DNA of 33,927 bases from Calditrichota bacterium (GTDB lineage: Bacteria > Zhuqueibacterota > Zhuqueibacteria > Thermofontimicrobiales > Thermofontimicrobiaceae), in the NCBI GenBank assembly GCA_013152715.1, contig JAADFU010000027.1, positions 1-33,927 on the forward strand. Reading direction: 5' to 3'. Shown here piece after piece: positions 24,529 through 32,693 of this stretch. Numbering within the stretch: position 1 is the stretch's first letter; each line of letters begins with the position of its first letter. The notes beneath the pieces are model-generated. The model was not told the origin of the DNA, ran no database searches, and was given only the letters and a program-made list of their open reading frames with translations. The position numbers were made by a program, and so were the translations under genes.

Positions 24529-26031
24529 CTATTTCATGAAAATCATCCTCCGCGACAAAGTTGTCTCTCCGGCGTGCAACTTGTAAATATAGATTCCCGA
24601 GGAGACTAAATTACCGGCGCTATTTCTGCCATCCCATTGTATTTGATGCATACCCGCGTTCTGAACGCCTTCGTAGAGAGTTCTGATCAATTGTCCGTTC
24701 AAATTATAAACCCTCAGACTCACCGAAGTTCCCGATAAATCGACACGATAGGAAATCGCAGTGCTCGGATTAAACGGATTGGGATAATTTTGCCCCAGCG
24801 AAATCTTTTCCGGCAAAACCGCTTCATTGATTTCGACGTCGGTCGTCGAACCGGCAATTGTGAGCGCATAATAGCTATTGACATCCTGCGTTTTAAAATA
24901 GATGATTTCTTGGTTGGGATCAATTTCAATCTGATTTTCCGAAAACCACTGTTGCGCGTTTTCATCCCAATACTTCAAAACAACATTTCCCTGGCGCAAA
25001 ACTTTTGCCAGCGGCGAAATTGCAGAATCTCTGTTTCCGTAATGAAATGCAATGCGCAGACGTTTGGCAAAGCGAACAGGGACGCCTCTTCCCTGCATGC
25101 AGCGCCCTGAAGGATTGGAAAAATTCAAATGAAATCCAAACATGGCCGAATCTGGCTGCCCGGGCAGGCTATCGCCAAAAATGTGCATAAACTCCACAAA
25201 CATGGAATCAGGGAACATCATTCCGCCGTGCCCGCCGCCATGCATTGCGCCTGGAGGAATGTCCATCCAGCTCAGACTATCCGTTGGGCAAAAAATTCGA
25301 ACGGAATCGCGCCAATTTTGATGTACCCAACGACCAGCCCAAGGAGCGGGACCTGTCGGTTCGCGCCATGTCTGTCCGTCAATAGTATAGACAATAATTA
25401 CTGGCATCAGGCGCCCTTCATTTATGCCGCCTTCAACCGTAACAATTGAACCAGCGCTCGGTTTCTCCACTCCTTCCGGCTGATACCAGGGCGGTCCAAA
25501 ATTGAGAAAATAATCGGCTTCACCGTCATTATTTTCATCAAGATAATAGTGAAAATAAAAATACGTTGTATCGACCAGCACAGTACCGGTCACGGTCACT
25601 CTCTGCAATGAGTCAGGCCATTGCGAATGATGCCACCAATTTTCCACTGGTTCGCGCCACAGCATTCCATCAATTTCAAAAACTACGATTACCGGCAGCA
25701 TGGGATTTTCGCGGACCAGCCCGACAATTTCCACAGTATCTCCGACCTGCGGGCGTTGCGCGCCGCTCTCCGGCTGATACCAGTCAGGACCGAATGCCAA
25801 TCCGTAATCTCCGACTCCGTCGCCGTCAACATCGAGCAAGTAAAACATGTGGACGAGAGAATCCTGAACAACAACACCCTGCACCGTCACTGTTTCCAGC
25901 GAATCAGGCCAGGCGCGATTGCCATGATGGCGCCCCATGTCCTGCGCGGTCAACGGCAGTGAAAACAGGAAAAGTCCTGCCATTGCAACAGTCAAAATCC
26001 AAACTGCTGAGCTGTTTACATGTGATTTCAT
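24529..26031 (-). CDS. Met/His-rich secreted protein with internal duplication and T9SS sorting domain
   Basis: A 500-residue exported protein: signal peptide 1-29, then two tandem repeats of about 87 residues (41-127 and 138-224). Each runs from WPDSL through VTVxGxV, a DxDGDG or DENNDG loop, an FGPxWYQPE segment and MPVIxVxxIDGxxWREP. A Met/His/Gly-rich segment (260-300; GAMHGGGHGGMM, FMHIFGD) follows. The C-terminus (412-500, SLGQNYPNPFNPSTAISYRV to SGIYIYKLHAG) is a classic type A T9SS sorting domain, so it is probably delivered to the surface. GGAGGTAACTTT precedes the ATG. It lies 85 bases after the DxDGDG protein gene, across a hairpin. The repeats look like small beta-barrel units; their function is unknown. 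Confidence 0.82.
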   Translation of the reverse strand: MKSHVNSSAVWILTVAMAGLFLFSLPLTAQDMGRHHGNRAWPDSLETVTVQGVVVQDSLVHMFYLLDVDGDGVGDYGLAFGPDWYQPESGAQRPQVGDTVEIVGLVRENPMLPVIVVFEIDGMLWREPVENWWHHSQWPDSLQRVTVTGTVLVDTTYFYFHYYLDENNDGEADYFLNFGPPWYQPEGVEKPSAGSIVTVEGGINEGRLMPVIIVYTIDGQTWREPTGPAPWAGRWVHQNWRDSVRIFCPTDSLSWMDIPPGAMHGGGHGGMMFPDSMFVEFMHIFGDSLPGQPDSAMFGFHLNFSNPSGRCMQGRGVPVRFAKRLRIAFHYGNRDSAISPLAKVLRQGNVVLKYWDENAQQWFSENQIEIDPNQEIIYFKTQDVNSYYALTIAGSTTDVEINEAVLPEKISLGQNYPNPFNPSTAISYRVDLSGTSVSLRVYNLNGQLIRTLYEGVQNAGMHQIQWDGRNSAGNLVSSGIYIYKLHAGETTLSRRMIFMK

Positions 26032-26116: not shown

Positions 26117-26578
26117 TTATTTATTCGGTTGATTCGCTCTGTTGCCTTTTGGCCCCGTGCCATCGCAGACGCCGGTGCGATTGCCATTTCCGACTTTATT
26201 GCCGGACCCAAACCCACCTCGTCGGCCATGTCCGCGAAAACCTTTTCCACTACCTTGATTGTCGTTAATGCCGTCACCGTTTCGGTCAATAAAATTTTTT
26301 CCCTGGCCGGCTTTTCGATTTTTGGGACCCGTGTAATCCGGATCAACGCCATTTGGAATTCCATCACCGTCGTGGTCAGGCGCGTTGTCATTAAAGCCGT
26401 CGCCATTTTTATCAACAAAATGGTAACCATGCTGCATTTTGCTGGGATCGACTGTGACTTGCTGCTGCGTCTTGACTTTTGCCTTAGTGTTATCTGTTTG
26501 CTGGGCAAAAACTGCCACGACAGAAAAAAGCAAAAAAACAAATAGACCAGCCAGTAGCGTTGACATTTTGTTTCTCAT
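26117..26578 (-). CDS. Small secreted DxDGDG protein with His/Gly-rich tail
   Basis: A 153-residue exported protein. The signal peptide (1-25, VAVFAQ) is followed by three calcium-loop-like segments: DKNGDGFNDN (56-65), DHDGDGIPNG (68-77) and DRNGDGINDN (98-107). A Gly/Arg/His-rich tail (GKGFRGHGRRGGFGSGNKVG) ends in GVCDGTGPKG. It shares the layout of the 22006-22371 protein, so the two are paralogues flanking the same cluster. ATG 26578 has GGAGGTTCAGA directly upstream. It is the first gene of the minus-strand cluster and diverges from the ECF sigma gene across 358 noncoding bases that hold a sigma54-like element. Calcium or other metal binding is inferred only. Confidence 0.78.
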   Translation of the reverse strand: MRNKMSTLLAGLFVFLLFSVVAVFAQQTDNTKAKVKTQQQVTVDPSKMQHGYHFVDKNGDGFNDNAPDHDGDGIPNGVDPDYTGPKNRKAGQGKNFIDRNGDGINDNQGSGKGFRGHGRRGGFGSGNKVGNGNRTGVCDGTGPKGNRANQPNK

Positions 26579-26860: not shown

Positions 26861-26890
26861 CGAATGATTTTTTCATTTTTAGTGTCTAAT
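26861..26890 (+). promoter_or_regulatory. Putative autoregulated ECF-type promoter, copy 1 (upstream of the sigma gene)
   Basis: CGAATGATTTTT (26861-26872) and GTGTCTAAT (26882-26890). The same two blocks with exactly the same spacing (21 bases start to start) recur before the anti-sigma gene. GTCTAA resembles the -10 of ECF promoters; the block at the -35 position is not a textbook GGAAC. Confidence 0.6.
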
Positions 26891-26936
26891 TATGGAGATA
26901 CTTGTCAAAAATTTGGTTAACTAACGGCTAACAAAA

Positions 26937-27509
26937 TTGCGCGAACAGGAACTTCTCCCAAAAATTGCCACAGGCGACATAAACGCATTCAAGCGATTAT
27001 TTGAAAAATACCAGACATCGGTATTCAATCTCTGCTTTCGATTCGCCAAAAATCGGGAGGAAGCCGAGGATTTGTGTCAGGAGGTATTCTTAAAAATATT
27101 TCAAGCTGCGCATACTTTTCGCCAGCAATCTCGTCTCTCCACCTGGATTTACCGCATTACTGTCAATTTGTGTCTGAATTACAACAGGCAAAAAAATCGC
27201 TACTCATGGTTTTCGCTGCAAGACCTGGTAAAAGCGAAAAATTCATCCGAGCATGACATCGAAGACGTCACTCTGACAAATCCGGAAGAGAATCTCGAAA
27301 TCTTTGAACGGGAAAAAATAGTTCAACGGGCAATTCAGTCGCTCCCGAAAAATCAACGCATTGCTTTAGTTTTGCAAAGATACGAAGAATTATCAGTGAA
27401 AGAAATTGCAGAAATTCTCGATTGTTCTGAATCTTCGGTCCAATCCCGGCTTTCGCGGGCGCGCGAGAATCTCGCAAAGAAACTACTTCCGTTAGCACAG
27501 GATATCTAA
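26937..27509 (+). CDS. ECF (sigma70 group 4) RNA polymerase sigma factor
   Basis: A 190-residue ECF sigma factor. Region sigma2 (about 12-85) includes ALFxKYQ-type AFKRLFEKYQTSVFNLCFRF, EEAEDLCQEVFLKIFQAA and STWIYRITVNLCLNYNRQK. Region sigma4 (about 128-182) includes LPKNQRIALVLQRYEELSVKEIAEIL and SSVQSRLSRARENLAKKL. A linker of about 35 residues lies between. Start is TTG at 26937, which matches the family N-terminus (REQELLPKIATGDINAF); the ribosome site is poor, which might keep expression low. The gene is followed by a zinc-finger anti-sigma gene and a Spy/CnrX-like sensor gene, so it is likely held at the membrane until a periplasmic signal appears. Upstream and downstream copies of one promoter motif suggest it drives its own operon. 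Confidence 0.93.
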   Translation: MREQELLPKIATGDINAFKRLFEKYQTSVFNLCFRFAKNREEAEDLCQEVFLKIFQAAHTFRQQSRLSTWIYRITVNLCLNYNRQKNRYSWFSLQDLVKAKNSSEHDIEDVTLTNPEENLEIFEREKIVQRAIQSLPKNQRIALVLQRYEELSVKEIAEILDCSESSVQSRLSRARENLAKKLLPLAQDI

Positions 27510-27514
27510 CCGAC

Positions 27515-27544
27515 CGAATGATTTTTCCCCGCGGTGTGTCTAAT
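27515..27544 (+). promoter_or_regulatory. Putative ECF-type promoter, copy 2 (upstream of the anti-sigma gene)
   Basis: CGAATGATTTTT (27515-27526) and GTGTCTAAT (27536-27544) repeat the motif at 26861-26890 with identical spacing, while the bases between them differ. It lies wholly in the 55-base gap after the sigma gene and would give a very short leader that holds AAGGAG. Confidence 0.6.
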
Positions 27545-27564
27545 AATTATAAGGAGACCAAAAG

Positions 27565-28062
27565 ATGAAATGCACAGCCGCAAAGAAAAAATTTATCGCC
27601 TTGATCGACGGCGAATTGACTAAAAATGAGAAGATTGCAATTCAAACCCATCTGGAAGTTTGTTCCAAATGCCAAGTAGATTTTGAATTTTTGAAAAAAA
27701 TTTATATTCCTGCTCACGAGCTTAAGCCAATTGCACCCGCTCCTTTTTTGTGGCAAAAAATTTATCTTCGCCTTGCTGAAAGAAAACAGAAAAAAACTTG
27801 GGGATTTGGCATTAGTGAGTTCTTTCCCAGAATAGCAACTGCCGCTGCAATTTTTTTGCTACTGGTTACAGGAATCACGTTTGGGGTTTATCTGGGCAAT
27901 TTTTCAGACAGCATTGTTGCTACCGACCAGAATACGACCGCGCCAACTGAAGAATTGGTGCGTGACGCCTATTTAGACGCTTTTGATACGATTCCGCCAG
28001 AATCGGTGGCCGGAGTTTATTTTTCATTACAAACTGCTGAACCAGATGACGGACAACAATAG
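27565..28062 (+). CDS. Zinc-finger (ZAS/zf-HC2) membrane anti-sigma factor
   Basis: A 165-residue single-pass membrane protein. The N-terminal cytoplasmic domain carries the anti-sigma zinc motif H29-x3-C33-x2-C36 (THLEVCSKC) with C3 as the fourth ligand, then a helix and linker (45-88). One transmembrane helix (about 90-111, IATAAAIFLLLVTGITFGVYL) leads to a short periplasmic acidic tail (112-165). Such proteins bind and hold the cognate ECF sigma factor. AAGGAG is well placed before the ATG. The gene follows the sigma gene directly and is followed 42 bases later by a Spy/CnrX-like gene. The periplasmic tail is short and has no recognised fold; it may be what the sensor contacts. Confidence 0.87.
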   Translation: MKCTAAKKKFIALIDGELTKNEKIAIQTHLEVCSKCQVDFEFLKKIYIPAHELKPIAPAPFLWQKIYLRLAERKQKKTWGFGISEFFPRIATAAAIFLLLVTGITFGVYLGNFSDSIVATDQNTTAPTEELVRDAYLDAFDTIPPESVAGVYFSLQTAEPDDGQQ

Positions 28063-28103: not shown

Positions 28104-28652
28104 ATGAAGAAAAAGCTTTTTATCCTCGGCCTGATTTTATTGACAATAATAAATTTATCGGCATTTGGCACTTTGACTTATCGTAAATACTGCCAGCGGA
28201 GCACAGCCTGCCCCATGACTGAAGCCAAATCGCTTCGCGGCCAGGCAATCTGTCAAAAACTACAATTAACCGACAATCAGATTAAGCAAATGCGCGAAAT
28301 GAGCTACGGTTTCCACAGCAAAGCTGACAGTCTGGCAGATGTTTTGAAAGAAAAAAGATTAAAATTATTAGACCTTTTAAACGAAAACCACGCGACAAAA
28401 AGCCAAATTTTAACCTATGTCGATCAAATAAATCTACTGCAAAAGGATTTGCAATTTGAGGTAATTAATTATTTGCTCAATCAGAAAGAAATCTTGAGCC
28501 CGGAGCAACAAAAAAAATTCATCGATTTAATTGGAACACGTATGAAGAGTGAAACCGTCCATTTCAAATCCACCGGGTTCGATTTTATTGAAGGCACTTG
28601 CGCTCATAATTCTGACAATCCAAATAAATGTGATACAGTAAAACAAAACTAA
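28104..28652 (+). CDS. Spy/CpxP/CnrX-like periplasmic metal- or stress-sensor protein
   Basis: A 182-residue protein with an N-terminal signal anchor (5-25) and a helical periplasmic domain with the LTxxQ features of the Spy/CpxP/ZraP/CnrX superfamily: KLQLTDNQIKQMREMSYGFHSKADSLADVLKEKRLKLLDLL (52-92) and ILSPEQQKKFIDLI (130-143). Before and after this core are cysteines and histidines (C30, C36, C50, H71, and CAHNSDNPNKC near the end) that could bind metal. In CnrYXH a protein of this fold senses Ni/Co and signals to the anti-sigma. In Zra, ZraP binds zinc and dampens ZraSR. Its place directly after sigma and anti-sigma genes favours the CnrX-like role. Chaperone-like activity is the alternative. 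Metal identity unknown. Confidence 0.78.
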   Translation: MKKKLFILGLILLTIINLSAFGTLTYRKYCQRSTACPMTEAKSLRGQAICQKLQLTDNQIKQMREMSYGFHSKADSLADVLKEKRLKLLDLLNENHATKSQILTYVDQINLLQKDLQFEVINYLLNQKEILSPEQQKKFIDLIGTRMKSETVHFKSTGFDFIEGTCAHNSDNPNKCDTVKQN

Positions 28653-28670: not shown

Positions 28671-29045
28671 ATGAAATCATGGAAACTCATTGGAACTCTT
28701 GCGCTAGCTCTTGTGGTGTTGGCCAGTTTCACCGTATTTTCAACGGCTCAAGACAAAAAGCAGGACAACAAAACAAAAAAAACCACCGTAAAAGTGGAAG
28801 CCAAAAAAATTGACAAAACAAAATTAAATCAGAGTAAATGCACTCGGCACGCACAAAAAGACAAAGTCAGCAATTGTTTGAAAGGGAAAGTTCTGATCTC
28901 TAAAGATCACGATTGTGCGAATTGTCCCGAGGCTAACGCTGAAAACGCTACTGAATGTGAGCATGAGAAAACAAAATGTGAGCATGAAAAAACAAAATGC
29001 GAGCATGAAAAAGCAGAAAAGAAAACAAATAAAGAGAAAAAATAA
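28671..29045 (+). CDS. Small secreted Cys/His-repeat protein, candidate metal binder
   Basis: A 124-residue exported protein: signal peptide 1-26 (LASFTVFSTAQ-D), a Lys/Thr-rich stretch (28-56), then a Cys/His region with CTRHAQ, NCLKG and DHDCANC, and three seven-residue repeats CEHEKTK, CEHEKTK, CEHEKAE beginning at C96, C103 and C110. A Lys-rich tail ends the chain. The Cys and His spacing strongly suggests binding of a thiophilic metal such as Zn, Cu, Ni or Cd, though no family is recognised. The gene has a good GGAG site and is the last of the sigma, anti-sigma, sensor set, so it is likely an effector made on induction. A long-stem terminator follows. Confidence 0.72.
   Translation: MKSWKLIGTLALALVVLASFTVFSTAQDKKQDNKTKKTTVKVEAKKIDKTKLNQSKCTRHAQKDKVSNCLKGKVLISKDHDCANCPEANAENATECEHEKTKCEHEKTKCEHEKAEKKTNKEKK
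28956..29018 (+). repeat. Three in-frame 21-bp tandem repeats
   Basis: Three consecutive 21-base units, each beginning TGTGAGCATGA or TGCGAGCATGA and encoding C-E-H-E-K-x-x. Units one and two differ at one base, unit three at a few. Near-identity indicates recent duplication by slippage, so copy number may vary between strains. Confidence 0.85.
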
Positions 29046-29063: not shown

Positions 29064-29162
29064 GGGGTCGCGTCAAAAGTAAATTTGGACCGCAACTTAT
29101 GTCCCAAAAATGCATTTATTGTGGAGCCCAAACAATTATCTTTTGAGGCGACCCCTTTTTTA
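29064..29162 (+). terminator. Long-loop inverted repeat and terminator between convergent genes
   Basis: Arms GGGGTCGCGTCAAAAG (29064-29079) and CTTTTGAGGCGACCCC (29140-29155) pair at 15 of 16 positions around a 60-base loop, followed by seven T. The T-run is on the plus side only, so it terminates the metal-operon transcript. The loop itself contains a small TTTGGAC/GTCCCAAA pairing and an ATGCAT. The length suggests either a structured 3' end or a small MITE-like insertion. Confidence 0.6.
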
Positions 29163-30524
29163 TTTCATGCCCAATTTTTCCAGCCGTGACCGCAGATGAC
29201 GCTCCGTAATTCCCAACAATCTGGCTGCCGCGCTCTGGTTCCCGCCGGACTGAGCAAGAGCTTCACGGATCATCTCTTTTTCGAATGTCTGCATTTTGTT
29301 TTGATAGCCGCCCTGAAGATGATAGGGATCAAGAATCGCGCGTTCGGATTTTGTTTTCATCTGGGCAGGTAAATCTTTTTGCGTGATTAATTCGCCGCGG
29401 CACATCACCACAGCGCTTTCGATCATGTTTTCCAGTTCTCGAACATTCCCCGGAAATTCATATTTCATCAGAAAGTCCAACGCTTCGCGAGTGATGCCTT
29501 TGACATCTTTTTCGTTTTGCTCGGCATATTTTTGAATAAAAAACTCGACCAAAGGCGGGATGTCCGCCTTTCTCTTTCGCAGCGGCGGGATCCAGACACT
29601 CACGACGTTGAGCCGATAAAATAGATCTTCTCGGAAATTGCCATCTTCCAACATTTTTTCCAGAGGTCTGTGAGTAGCAGCAATAATTCGCACATCTATT
29701 TCAATAGTTTCATTGCTCCCCAGTCGTTCGATTTGGCCAAACTGAATAGCGCGCAGCAATTTTACTTGTACCGACAGCGGAATGTCTCCCACTTCGTCGA
29801 TGAAAAGTGTACCCGTATGCGCTTGCTCAAATCTGCCAATGCGTCGCTGCGCCGCGCCGGTGAAAGCTCCTTTTTCATGACCAAAAAGCTCGCTCTCCAG
29901 CAAATTTTCCGACAGCGCCGCCACGTTCACAATGACAAACGGTTTGTCGCCCCGCGGAGAGGCAAAATGAATGGCGCGGGCAATCACTTCTTTCCCTGTC
30001 CCGCTCTCTCCGCGAATGAGCACCGTGGCTTTGCTCGGAGCCACGCGCGCCGCTGTATTCAATACATTTTCCATCTCGCTGCTGCGTGAAATGATGCCTT
30101 GGAACGAATAGCGGCCCACAAGCTGCTCTTTCAGCGCCCGATTTTCCGCTTGCAAAGTTCGTTTTTCCGCCACGCGTTCAATCAATATTTCCAGATCGTC
30201 CAGATTGATCGGTTTGGTCAAATAATCGTACGCGCCAGATTTCATCATCGCAACCGCATTTTCCACGTTCCCGTAGGCTGTCATCACGACAATGTCGATC
30301 TCCGGGTTCAGTTCTTTGACGCGTTTCAGCACGGTCATGCCATCCATTTCGGGCATGCGGAAATCTGTCAGAACGAGATCAATGGCATTTTTCTCGGCAA
30401 GCGCCAGCCCTTCTTTGCCGTCTGTCGCCGTGAGAATTTTGTACTTTCGTCGCTGCAAAAAACTTTTCAGTGAGAGCAATTGGGCTTCTTCGTCATCAAT
30501 GATTAAAATAGTCAATTTTTCCAT
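29160..30524 (-). CDS. NtrC-family sigma54-dependent response regulator (ZraR/AtoC-like)
   Basis: A 454-residue response regulator. Receiver domain 1-120 has acidic D10/D11, phospho-acceptor D54 (LVLTDFRMPEMDG) and K104 (LTKPIN). The AAA+ domain (about 142-370) has Walker A GESGTGKE (172-179), the sigma54-contacting GAFTGA loop (219-224) and Walker B FIDEVGD (D243, E244). A Fis-type HTH lies at the C-terminus (about 415-454, QSGGNQSAAARLLGITERHLRSRLEKLG). It activates sigma54 promoters when phosphorylated. The gene follows its kinase by 28 bases and is convergent with the Spy-like and Cys/His genes, recalling the zraP/zraSR arrangement. Targets are unknown; the sigma54-like element at 26636-26651 is a candidate. 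Confidence 0.94.
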   Translation of the reverse strand: MEKLTILIIDDEEAQLLSLKSFLQRRKYKILTATDGKEGLALAEKNAIDLVLTDFRMPEMDGMTVLKRVKELNPEIDIVVMTAYGNVENAVAMMKSGAYDYLTKPINLDDLEILIERVAEKRTLQAENRALKEQLVGRYSFQGIISRSSEMENVLNTAARVAPSKATVLIRGESGTGKEVIARAIHFASPRGDKPFVIVNVAALSENLLESELFGHEKGAFTGAAQRRIGRFEQAHTGTLFIDEVGDIPLSVQVKLLRAIQFGQIERLGSNETIEIDVRIIAATHRPLEKMLEDGNFREDLFYRLNVVSVWIPPLRKRKADIPPLVEFFIQKYAEQNEKDVKGITREALDFLMKYEFPGNVRELENMIESAVVMCRGELITQKDLPAQMKTKSERAILDPYHLQGGYQNKMQTFEKEMIREALAQSGGNQSAAARLLGITERHLRSRLEKLGMK

Positions 30525-30552
30525 AAAAAATGTTGTCCTGAAATATGCTTTT

Positions 30553-32595
30553 TTAGCTTAAATTTTCGGTTTTCTTTGCTTCGACGGGAAGCTTGATAAT
30601 AAATTCCGCACCGCCCTGATCGCGATGACGCGCGGTGATTATACCGCCATGTTCAAAAATTATTCTTTGCACAATGCTCAGTCCAATGCCAGTACCTTTC
30701 GCCTTTGTCGTGAAATAGAGATTAAAAATTTTGTCCAAAATTTCCTGCGATATGCCAGTCCCCGTATCTGCAAAAGAGATTTTCATTTCATTATTTTTTA
30801 TCTGTTCAGTTTTAATGATAATTTTTCCACTTTCTTTGATTGCATCAATGGAATTTTGAACCAGATTGATGAAAACTTGTTGCATTTGCATGCGATCCCA
30901 TTTCACTTCGCCGTCCCATTGAAGATTCAATATCAACTCAATCTTTTGTTTCTGCAGCACATTCTGATATTGCTTTTTCAAAGATTCAAAAAAATCTGAC
31001 AACTTAATTTTTTCCGGATGCACCGGCAACGGTCTGGCGAAGCGCAGGAAATCCTCCACGGTCTGGTTGATCCGACTGACTTCCTTGAGGACAATTTCCG
31101 CTAATTGGTGATATTCATCGGCTTCAGATTTTGGTTCAAAGTCTTTGTTGAGTTGCTGGACGATGGTGTTAATCGAATTTAACGGATTGCGAATTTCATG
31201 GGCGACGCCGGATGCCAGTTCCCCCATGGCCGACATTCTTTCCTGACGCTCGATTTGCGCTTGCAATTGAAGCTGTTCCGTCAGGTCGCGAATGACAAGA
31301 ATGACATTTTCGCGATCGCGTTCATCTTGAAATTGAGCCCGCGACACGAGCAAAACCCGATTCTGATCTTTGATTTTGCATTCAATTTGCTTCATCGCTG
31401 ATTCCGAGTGCAAAATTTCCTCGCACTGATCGGACGAAAATATTGTTCTTAAATCTTTGTTCAGTGCGTCCGAGGCTTTGATTTGAAAAATTTCTTCCGC
31501 AGCGCGATTCCACAGACTGATACGCCGCTCAGGATCGAGCACAATGATGGCATCGCTGACATTTTGGATGACGTTTGCCGAATACGTCTCCACAATTTGA
31601 TATTGCTTTTCCAGCAAGCTGTAATTTTGCCTGATGAAAATAAAAATCATTACCACAAAGCCGAAAACTAACAAAATAATGCTGATGATGACAATTCTGC
31701 GGTAGAGCCGGGCTCTGATTTGATTCAGCGGTTCCATGGAAATTCCCAGTCGGAAGACACCCACAAAAAATTCATCAAAATAAAATGACTGCACAGCCTC
31801 GAAAATAGTTTCGGTCCCAAAGGGAAACTCGCGCGTGTGCAGCAAAGTATCACGTGTGGCACTCAGCAAAAACTGTGACTCGGTAATTTTTTCCATACTT
31901 TTCACGTCACCGCTGGCAGCAATAATTCCACTCGAATCCTGCAAAACCACGTAGCGAATACCCTTGTTCGCACTGATTTCTTTCAAGAGCGAACCGAAAC
32001 CGATCTCGCGGCGGAATGCCAGTAACTCTGCCGCTTCCAGATTCAGCACAATTGCGCCGTGATTCTCCGTAGCAAGGGCAACAATATATCTCATGCCTTC
32101 TTCTTTTTCAGCGCGATGATAGCCGAGAATCAGCGTGTCCTGTTCGCCGCTAAAAATTGGCGCCAGATTTTCTCGTGCTGCGCTTTCCAATAAATCGCGC
32201 TTGTGCAATTGCCCATGGCTGGAATACATTAATTTGCCGTCATGGCGAAATATTTGAATGCGAAAAATATGATATTCTTCGGAAAACTGACGCAAAAATT
32301 TATTGTTAATTTTGTTTTGTTGCAACAAAAACTTGAGGAACATCGCGTCGTTGAGCAGGCGGTCTTCCAAAAACATTTCCAAATGATCGTAAGTCAGCAA
32401 AGCGTTTCGTGAGGACGAAATGACCGTCGCCAGCAGCGTGCTGGCATGTTCCTCCATCAAATCCAACAATTCTCTTTTGCTCTGATGCAGCTCGATCAGC
32501 GCCGACGAAAACATCACCAGCGCCAGAGCCAGAAAAACGAAGATCAGGCTTTTGGGCTGAAGAAATAAAATTTTCTTAAATCTCTTTCCTGCCAT
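30553..32595 (-). CDS. Membrane sensor histidine kinase with PAS domain (ZraS/NtrB-like)
   Basis: A 680-residue sensor kinase, cognate to the NtrC-type regulator downstream. TM1 (about 14-34) and TM2 (about 300-322) enclose a periplasmic sensor of about 265 residues of probable double-Cache type (IFRHDGKLMYSSHG, VVLQDSSGIIAASGD). A cytoplasmic PAS domain (335-440, VIQNVSDAIIVLDPERRISLW) follows, then HisKA with H466 (GVAHEIRNPLNS), and HATPase with N-box NLVQNSIDA (577-585), FADTGTGIS and GTGIGLSIVQ. I chose ATG 32595 because GAGG lies 5 bases upstream; TTG 32640 is also in frame but lacks a site. The signal sensed cannot be read from the sequence. The regulator follows after 28 bases. Confidence 0.93.
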   Translation of the reverse strand: MAGKRFKKILFLQPKSLIFVFLALALVMFSSALIELHQSKRELLDLMEEHASTLLATVISSSRNALLTYDHLEMFLEDRLLNDAMFLKFLLQQNKINNKFLRQFSEEYHIFRIQIFRHDGKLMYSSHGQLHKRDLLESAARENLAPIFSGEQDTLILGYHRAEKEEGMRYIVALATENHGAIVLNLEAAELLAFRREIGFGSLLKEISANKGIRYVVLQDSSGIIAASGDVKSMEKITESQFLLSATRDTLLHTREFPFGTETIFEAVQSFYFDEFFVGVFRLGISMEPLNQIRARLYRRIVIISIILLVFGFVVMIFIFIRQNYSLLEKQYQIVETYSANVIQNVSDAIIVLDPERRISLWNRAAEEIFQIKASDALNKDLRTIFSSDQCEEILHSESAMKQIECKIKDQNRVLLVSRAQFQDERDRENVILVIRDLTEQLQLQAQIERQERMSAMGELASGVAHEIRNPLNSINTIVQQLNKDFEPKSEADEYHQLAEIVLKEVSRINQTVEDFLRFARPLPVHPEKIKLSDFFESLKKQYQNVLQKQKIELILNLQWDGEVKWDRMQMQQVFINLVQNSIDAIKESGKIIIKTEQIKNNEMKISFADTGTGISQEILDKIFNLYFTTKAKGTGIGLSIVQRIIFEHGGIITARHRDQGGAEFIIKLPVEAKKTENLS

Positions 32596-32693
32596 TCCAT
32601 CCTCGCCGTTTTCAAGGCGGGTTTTTATATGAACTTGCAAAATCGGAATTATTTATTTTCACGTTAGAAAACGATGATCTCCTGATTTATTTC

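Follow-up and report, generated by a model that had tools for sequence, protein, structure and literature searches.

In Corynebacterium glutamicum the ECF sigma factor SigH drives a separate promoter of its own anti-sigma gene, rshA, an arrangement proposed to serve quick shut-down (PMC3489674). For Neisseria meningitidis sigma-E, PMC2893595 gives a -35 element GTMAGBWTT, a -10 element CGTCTAAH and a small regulon that includes its own operon. In Escherichia coli RpoE, R171 bonds to G'-31, the base opposite C-31 (PMC6713349). A review reports that an AAC in the -35 element, an early hallmark of ECF promoters, is no longer required, and that autoregulated ECFs have already served to derive a residue-to-base code for such promoters (PMC8103513).

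We report that a contig of a Calditrichota bacterium (JAADFU010000027.1, 33,927 nt; hereafter the window) carries the bipartite element CGAATGATTTTT-N9-GTGTCTAAT in two exact copies, at 26861-26890 and 27515-27544, with the blocks 21 bases apart start to start in each, as the original prediction had it; the 9-nt spacers are unrelated between the copies, and so are the flanks. Copy 1 ends 46 nt upstream of the TTG start of an ECF sigma gene, and copy 2 begins 5 nt past its stop codon and ends 20 nt upstream of the ATG of the anti-sigma gene (Table 1).

Table 1. The twin element, the presumed operon and neighbouring genes in the window
Feature	Positions	Strand	Basis or remark
Protein with C-terminal T9SS sorting domain	24529-26031	-	TIGR04183, 8.5e-10
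Protein with DKNGDGFNDN-like repeats, calcium-binding in appearance	26117-26578	-	divergent from the sigma gene; no match in a Pfam search
P1 -35 block CGAATGATTTTT, predicted sigma-gene promoter, G-35 at 26862	26861-26872	+	conserved before relatives' sigma genes
P1 -10 block GTGTCTAAT	26882-26890	+	predicted transcript start ~26896
ECF sigma factor, 190 aa, TTG start	26937-27509	+	Pfam Sigma70_r2, Sigma70_r4_2
P2 -35 block CGAATGATTTTT, predicted anti-sigma promoter, G-35 at 27516	27515-27526	+	conserved before relatives' anti-sigma genes
P2 -10 block GTGTCTAAT	27536-27544	+	predicted transcript start ~27550
AAGGAG, probable ribosome-binding site of the anti-sigma gene	27551-27556	+	read in the sequence
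zf-HC2 zinc-finger anti-sigma factor, 165 aa, one apparent membrane span, ATG start	27565-28062	+	Pfam
Membrane-anchored LTXXQ protein, Spy/ZraP/CnrX superfamily, candidate sensor or chaperone	28104-28652	+	profile, predicted fold
Small Cys-rich exported-looking protein, last gene of the presumed operon	28671-29045	+	ORF, relatives
Two-component pair, sigma-54-type response regulator and histidine kinase, just past the operon	29160-32640	-	best NCBIfam scores AtoSC/ZraSR-like, below cut-offs

No third copy was found in the window at ≤3 mismatches and 100 shuffles of the window gave 0 copies; from base composition, the 21 fixed letters of the element are expected ~2.5e-8 times in the window. 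A search of the whole 4.15 Mb genome with the element minus its first C returned the window pair as exact matches, one site with 1 mismatch and one with 3, the control giving 2 matches. The window's copies are thus the only two mismatch-free ones, and the original prediction is not refuted by random frequency of the motif in the genome, a ground for rejection that it had named. The site with 1 mismatch was rejected as a regulon member, being antisense and inside the coding region of an ABC-transporter ATPase (C117). Coincidence, or a recent local duplication that serves no function, would agree with there being two exact copies only, but the low expectation and the unrelated spacers and flanks speak against it, and the twin placement, conserved across the class and in other phyla (see below), contradicts it; we give this explanation next to no weight.

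The sigma protein matches Sigma70_r2 (1.1e-19) and Sigma70_r4_2 (8.4e-19), both above cut-off, and consists of only regions 2 and 4 joined by a short linker, which places it among the ECF (group IV) factors. It scores 115 bits with TIGR02937 (cut-off 42.9) and 132.5 bits with the E. coli-type RpoE equivalog TIGR02939, short of its cut-off of 236.15. The adjoining gene encodes a class I zinc-finger anti-sigma factor (zf-HC2, 6.3e-7, 29.8 bits vs a cut-off of 22.2); such adjacency is an ECF trait, and the two proteins are predicted to be a cognate pair. The LTXXQ family profile matches the ZraP (8.5e-7), Spy (5.4e-7) and CnrX (~4e-4) chains, and a search with the predicted fold (mean pLDDT 72.5) places CnrX, CpxP, Spy and ZraP near the top of its matches, with weak E-values throughout. 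The locus accordingly has a CnrX-like candidate sensor beside a sigma/anti-sigma pair, a CnrYXH-type trait, at the superfamily level only. The Cys-rich protein repeats CEHEKTK, and similar proteins close the operon in several relatives; in two others (L049 and L052) the homologous sigma/anti-sigma/LTXXQ operon continues, judged from translations, into efflux-like genes of outer-membrane and membrane-fusion type and, in L049, an ABC ATPase.

The TTG start of the sigma gene at 26937 lacks an obvious ribosome-binding site. By eye, homologues in the same part of the tree (L006-L009, L013, L015, L017-L021 and L025) also appear to start their sigma genes with GTG or TTG, and their anti-sigma genes mostly with ATG. 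Outside the operon, the gene for the DKNGDGFNDN-repeat protein is kept at the equivalent place in a same-genus genome (L043 648-1124), and the two-component pair is likewise present in a same-genus genome.

Homologous loci were taken from genomes of the class and phylum and from named genomes. In these relatives the element usually has the form GCAAGTTTT-N12-TGTC(T/A)AA and, as seen by eye and with a mask, stands before the sigma gene, the anti-sigma gene or both; several loci carry one of the two sites only, or none. The mask scores G-35, A-33, three T and TGTC(T/A)AA and leaves -34, -32, -31 and -30 free; it was applied to anti-sigma windows of 280 nt and to other windows of ~210 nt. With ≤1 mismatch it hit 24 of 175 sigma windows, 37 of 176 anti-sigma windows and none of 354 internal coding windows, the first two fractions being lowered by the many remote ECF homologues among the loci. 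Among the 21 nearest loci, ≤2 mismatches gave sites before 13 sigma and 19 anti-sigma genes, a level at which 9 of the 354 internal windows also match. In 61 windows G-35 and TGTC are 21 nt apart; 17 windows have a distance of 20 and 9 one of 22, every other distance occurring in at most 3. With the free positions filled in, -35 to -30 reads GCAAGT, and mostly a G immediately precedes TGTC. As a rule the second copy is placed at the stop codon of the sigma gene, and the anti-sigma start follows ~6-30 nt past the -10. A class-wide pattern search of 63 genomes gave 17 sites and 0 control matches, and 12 of these sites directly precede ECF sigma or anti-sigma genes. Twin copies also extend to Bacteroidota (records L092, L093, L095 and L097); in Flavobacteriaceae and Ignavibacteriota, related sites have CATCTAA as their -10. 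A scan of viral contigs yielded remote ECF sigmas only.

That many homologues have this bipartite element, identically spaced, before their sigma genes, their anti-sigma genes or both, and that internal coding windows lack it, lends good comparative support to the predicted promoter motif and to a putative autoregulation. From the sequences, spacing, conservation and gene context of the elements we infer, with a probability of roughly 0.87, that they are promoters read by the ECF sigma encoded between them, P1 serving the operon and P2 the anti-sigma gene in a self-limiting feedback. Two identical sites near two genes would also fit operators of a separate transcription factor, for example the response regulator encoded at 29160-30524, rather than promoters. 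This we consider very improbable: the sites have the layout of ECF promoters (two blocks at a fixed distance, a TGTCTAA-like -10, 20-46 nt before gene starts), recur at loci with no such regulator nearby and are not palindromic.

A somewhat better case, though still an unlikely one, can be made for ECF promoters read wholly or partly by another of the genome's own sigmas in a cross-regulated network. There are ~17 ECF-type sigma genes in this genome, and TGTCTAA-type sites lie upstream of ECF genes on C131 and C180. One candidate is the C153 paralogue; its sigma is 46% identical and a related site, GAAAGTTTTT-N11-TGTTTAAT, precedes its anti-sigma gene, so cross-reading may occur. The window's -35, GAATGA, is however unlike those of these other loci, and in homologues the type of -35 follows the recognition residue of the local sigma, suggesting cognate reading.

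As for this -35, the early AAC hallmark is absent both from the window (GAATGA) and from most homologues (GCAAGT), and the original prediction was right that it is not of the GGAAC type: throughout the family, G takes the place of C at -31 (56 of 58 sites at ≤1 mismatch). Q169 of the window's sigma aligns with R171 of E. coli RpoE, and its presence in place of the arginine would fit the altered -31 and -32. Family members have E, Q, H or D at this position; among genes with K or R, G at -31 was seen in 0 of 12, counted at the looser cut-off of ≤2 mismatches, which also lets in chance sites. Q or H goes with T or C at -32, and E mostly with A: T or C was found in 14 of 15 Q/H sites vs 4 of 41 E sites (p 7e-9 by site counts, ignoring kinship). 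We do not accept this significance, as all Q/H sigmas except L215 belong to a single clade, which leaves only 1-2 independent pairs. That residue 169 sets base -32 is put forward as a hypothesis, since shared ancestry confounds the relation and there are exceptions to it; given the published residue-to-base code, it would be an instance of known work. More broadly, an ECF lineage across the window's phylum and Bacteroidota may keep the twin-promoter circuit, in which the sigma drives itself and, separately, its inhibitor, and the lineage's -35 specificity may have been rewired by changes at a single position of the recognition helix, where E goes with GCAAG, Q or H with GNA(T/C)G and K or R with C at -31; we hold this tentatively, at slightly less than even odds.

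A degenerate pattern (≤2 mismatches) gave 15 sites in the window's own genome vs 11 control matches; 5 of the 15 precede ECF sigma or anti-sigma genes, and outside ECF loci nothing rose above control. Two other genera of the family (L263 1501-1528 and L264 1501-1528) have a window-type site 69-70 nt upstream of orthologous genes that encode a membrane 4Fe-4S protein with NapH/NosR-like matches. This points to a small regulon specific to the lineage, of which the gene is a possible extra member. The 53% homologue of this gene in the window's own genome is without a site.

With the elements read as promoters of the local sigma, P1 would drive an operon of the sigma, anti-sigma, LTXXQ and Cys-rich genes, and P2 would add transcripts beginning at the anti-sigma gene. 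Since no terminator-like site was found on the + strand between the sigma and anti-sigma genes, read-through from P1 into the latter is expected. A signal at the envelope, possibly metal or misfolding stress, that the LTXXQ protein may help to sense would free the sigma from its membrane anti-sigma; the freed sigma would raise its own synthesis through P1 (positive feedback), and P1 and P2 together would yield still more anti-sigma and LTXXQ protein, such that the response would first grow and then bring itself to an end. The separate control of the anti-sigma gene that had been predicted holds in that the gene has its own promoter, but the predicted regulator is the same as for the sigma gene: with the same sigma most probably reading P2, this promoter would shift the anti-sigma:sigma ratio rather than provide independent control. 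The start signals (TTG without an obvious ribosome-binding site vs ATG with AAGGAG) would push toward anti-sigma too.

These data give a concrete consensus for the promoters of an ECF lineage found in uncultivated bacteria and in Bacteroidota, and suggest that it is by conserved design, and not as a local oddity, that the inhibitor has a second promoter. The family also offers a natural test of how single region 4 residues set -35 specificity, which might be of use in regulon prediction and for orthogonal switches.

For the circuit, the nearest precedent is C. glutamicum sigH-rshA with its sigma-driven separate anti-sigma promoter; there, sigH is transcribed from housekeeping promoters, whereas the window's sigma gene carries the twin element too, and the -35 is TGGAAGA compared to GAATGA (PMC3489674). 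For the -35, the nearest precedent is Neisseria sigma-E (GTAAGGTT with CGTCTAA; PMC2893595), which shares with the window G, not C, at -31 and a TCTAA -10. The -35 itself is unusual, in keeping with the predicted unusual specificity, but given this likeness it is not unique. Unlike that element, the window's GAATGATTTTT has T at -32, and the consulted part of PMC2893595 does not describe a twin promoter. E. coli RpoE has the same domain architecture as the window's sigma and reads GGAACTT (PMC6713349), where the window has T at -32, G at -31 and Q in place of R. Finally, Cupriavidus CnrYXH likewise combines an ECF sigma and a membrane anti-sigma with a four-helix protein of the CnrX/Spy superfamily that is periplasmic and anchored to the membrane, but differs in gene order and in the type of anti-sigma, which in the window is of the zinc-finger type. 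Taken together, the locus is a well-conserved variant of known regulation and no new kind, its general design being already known.
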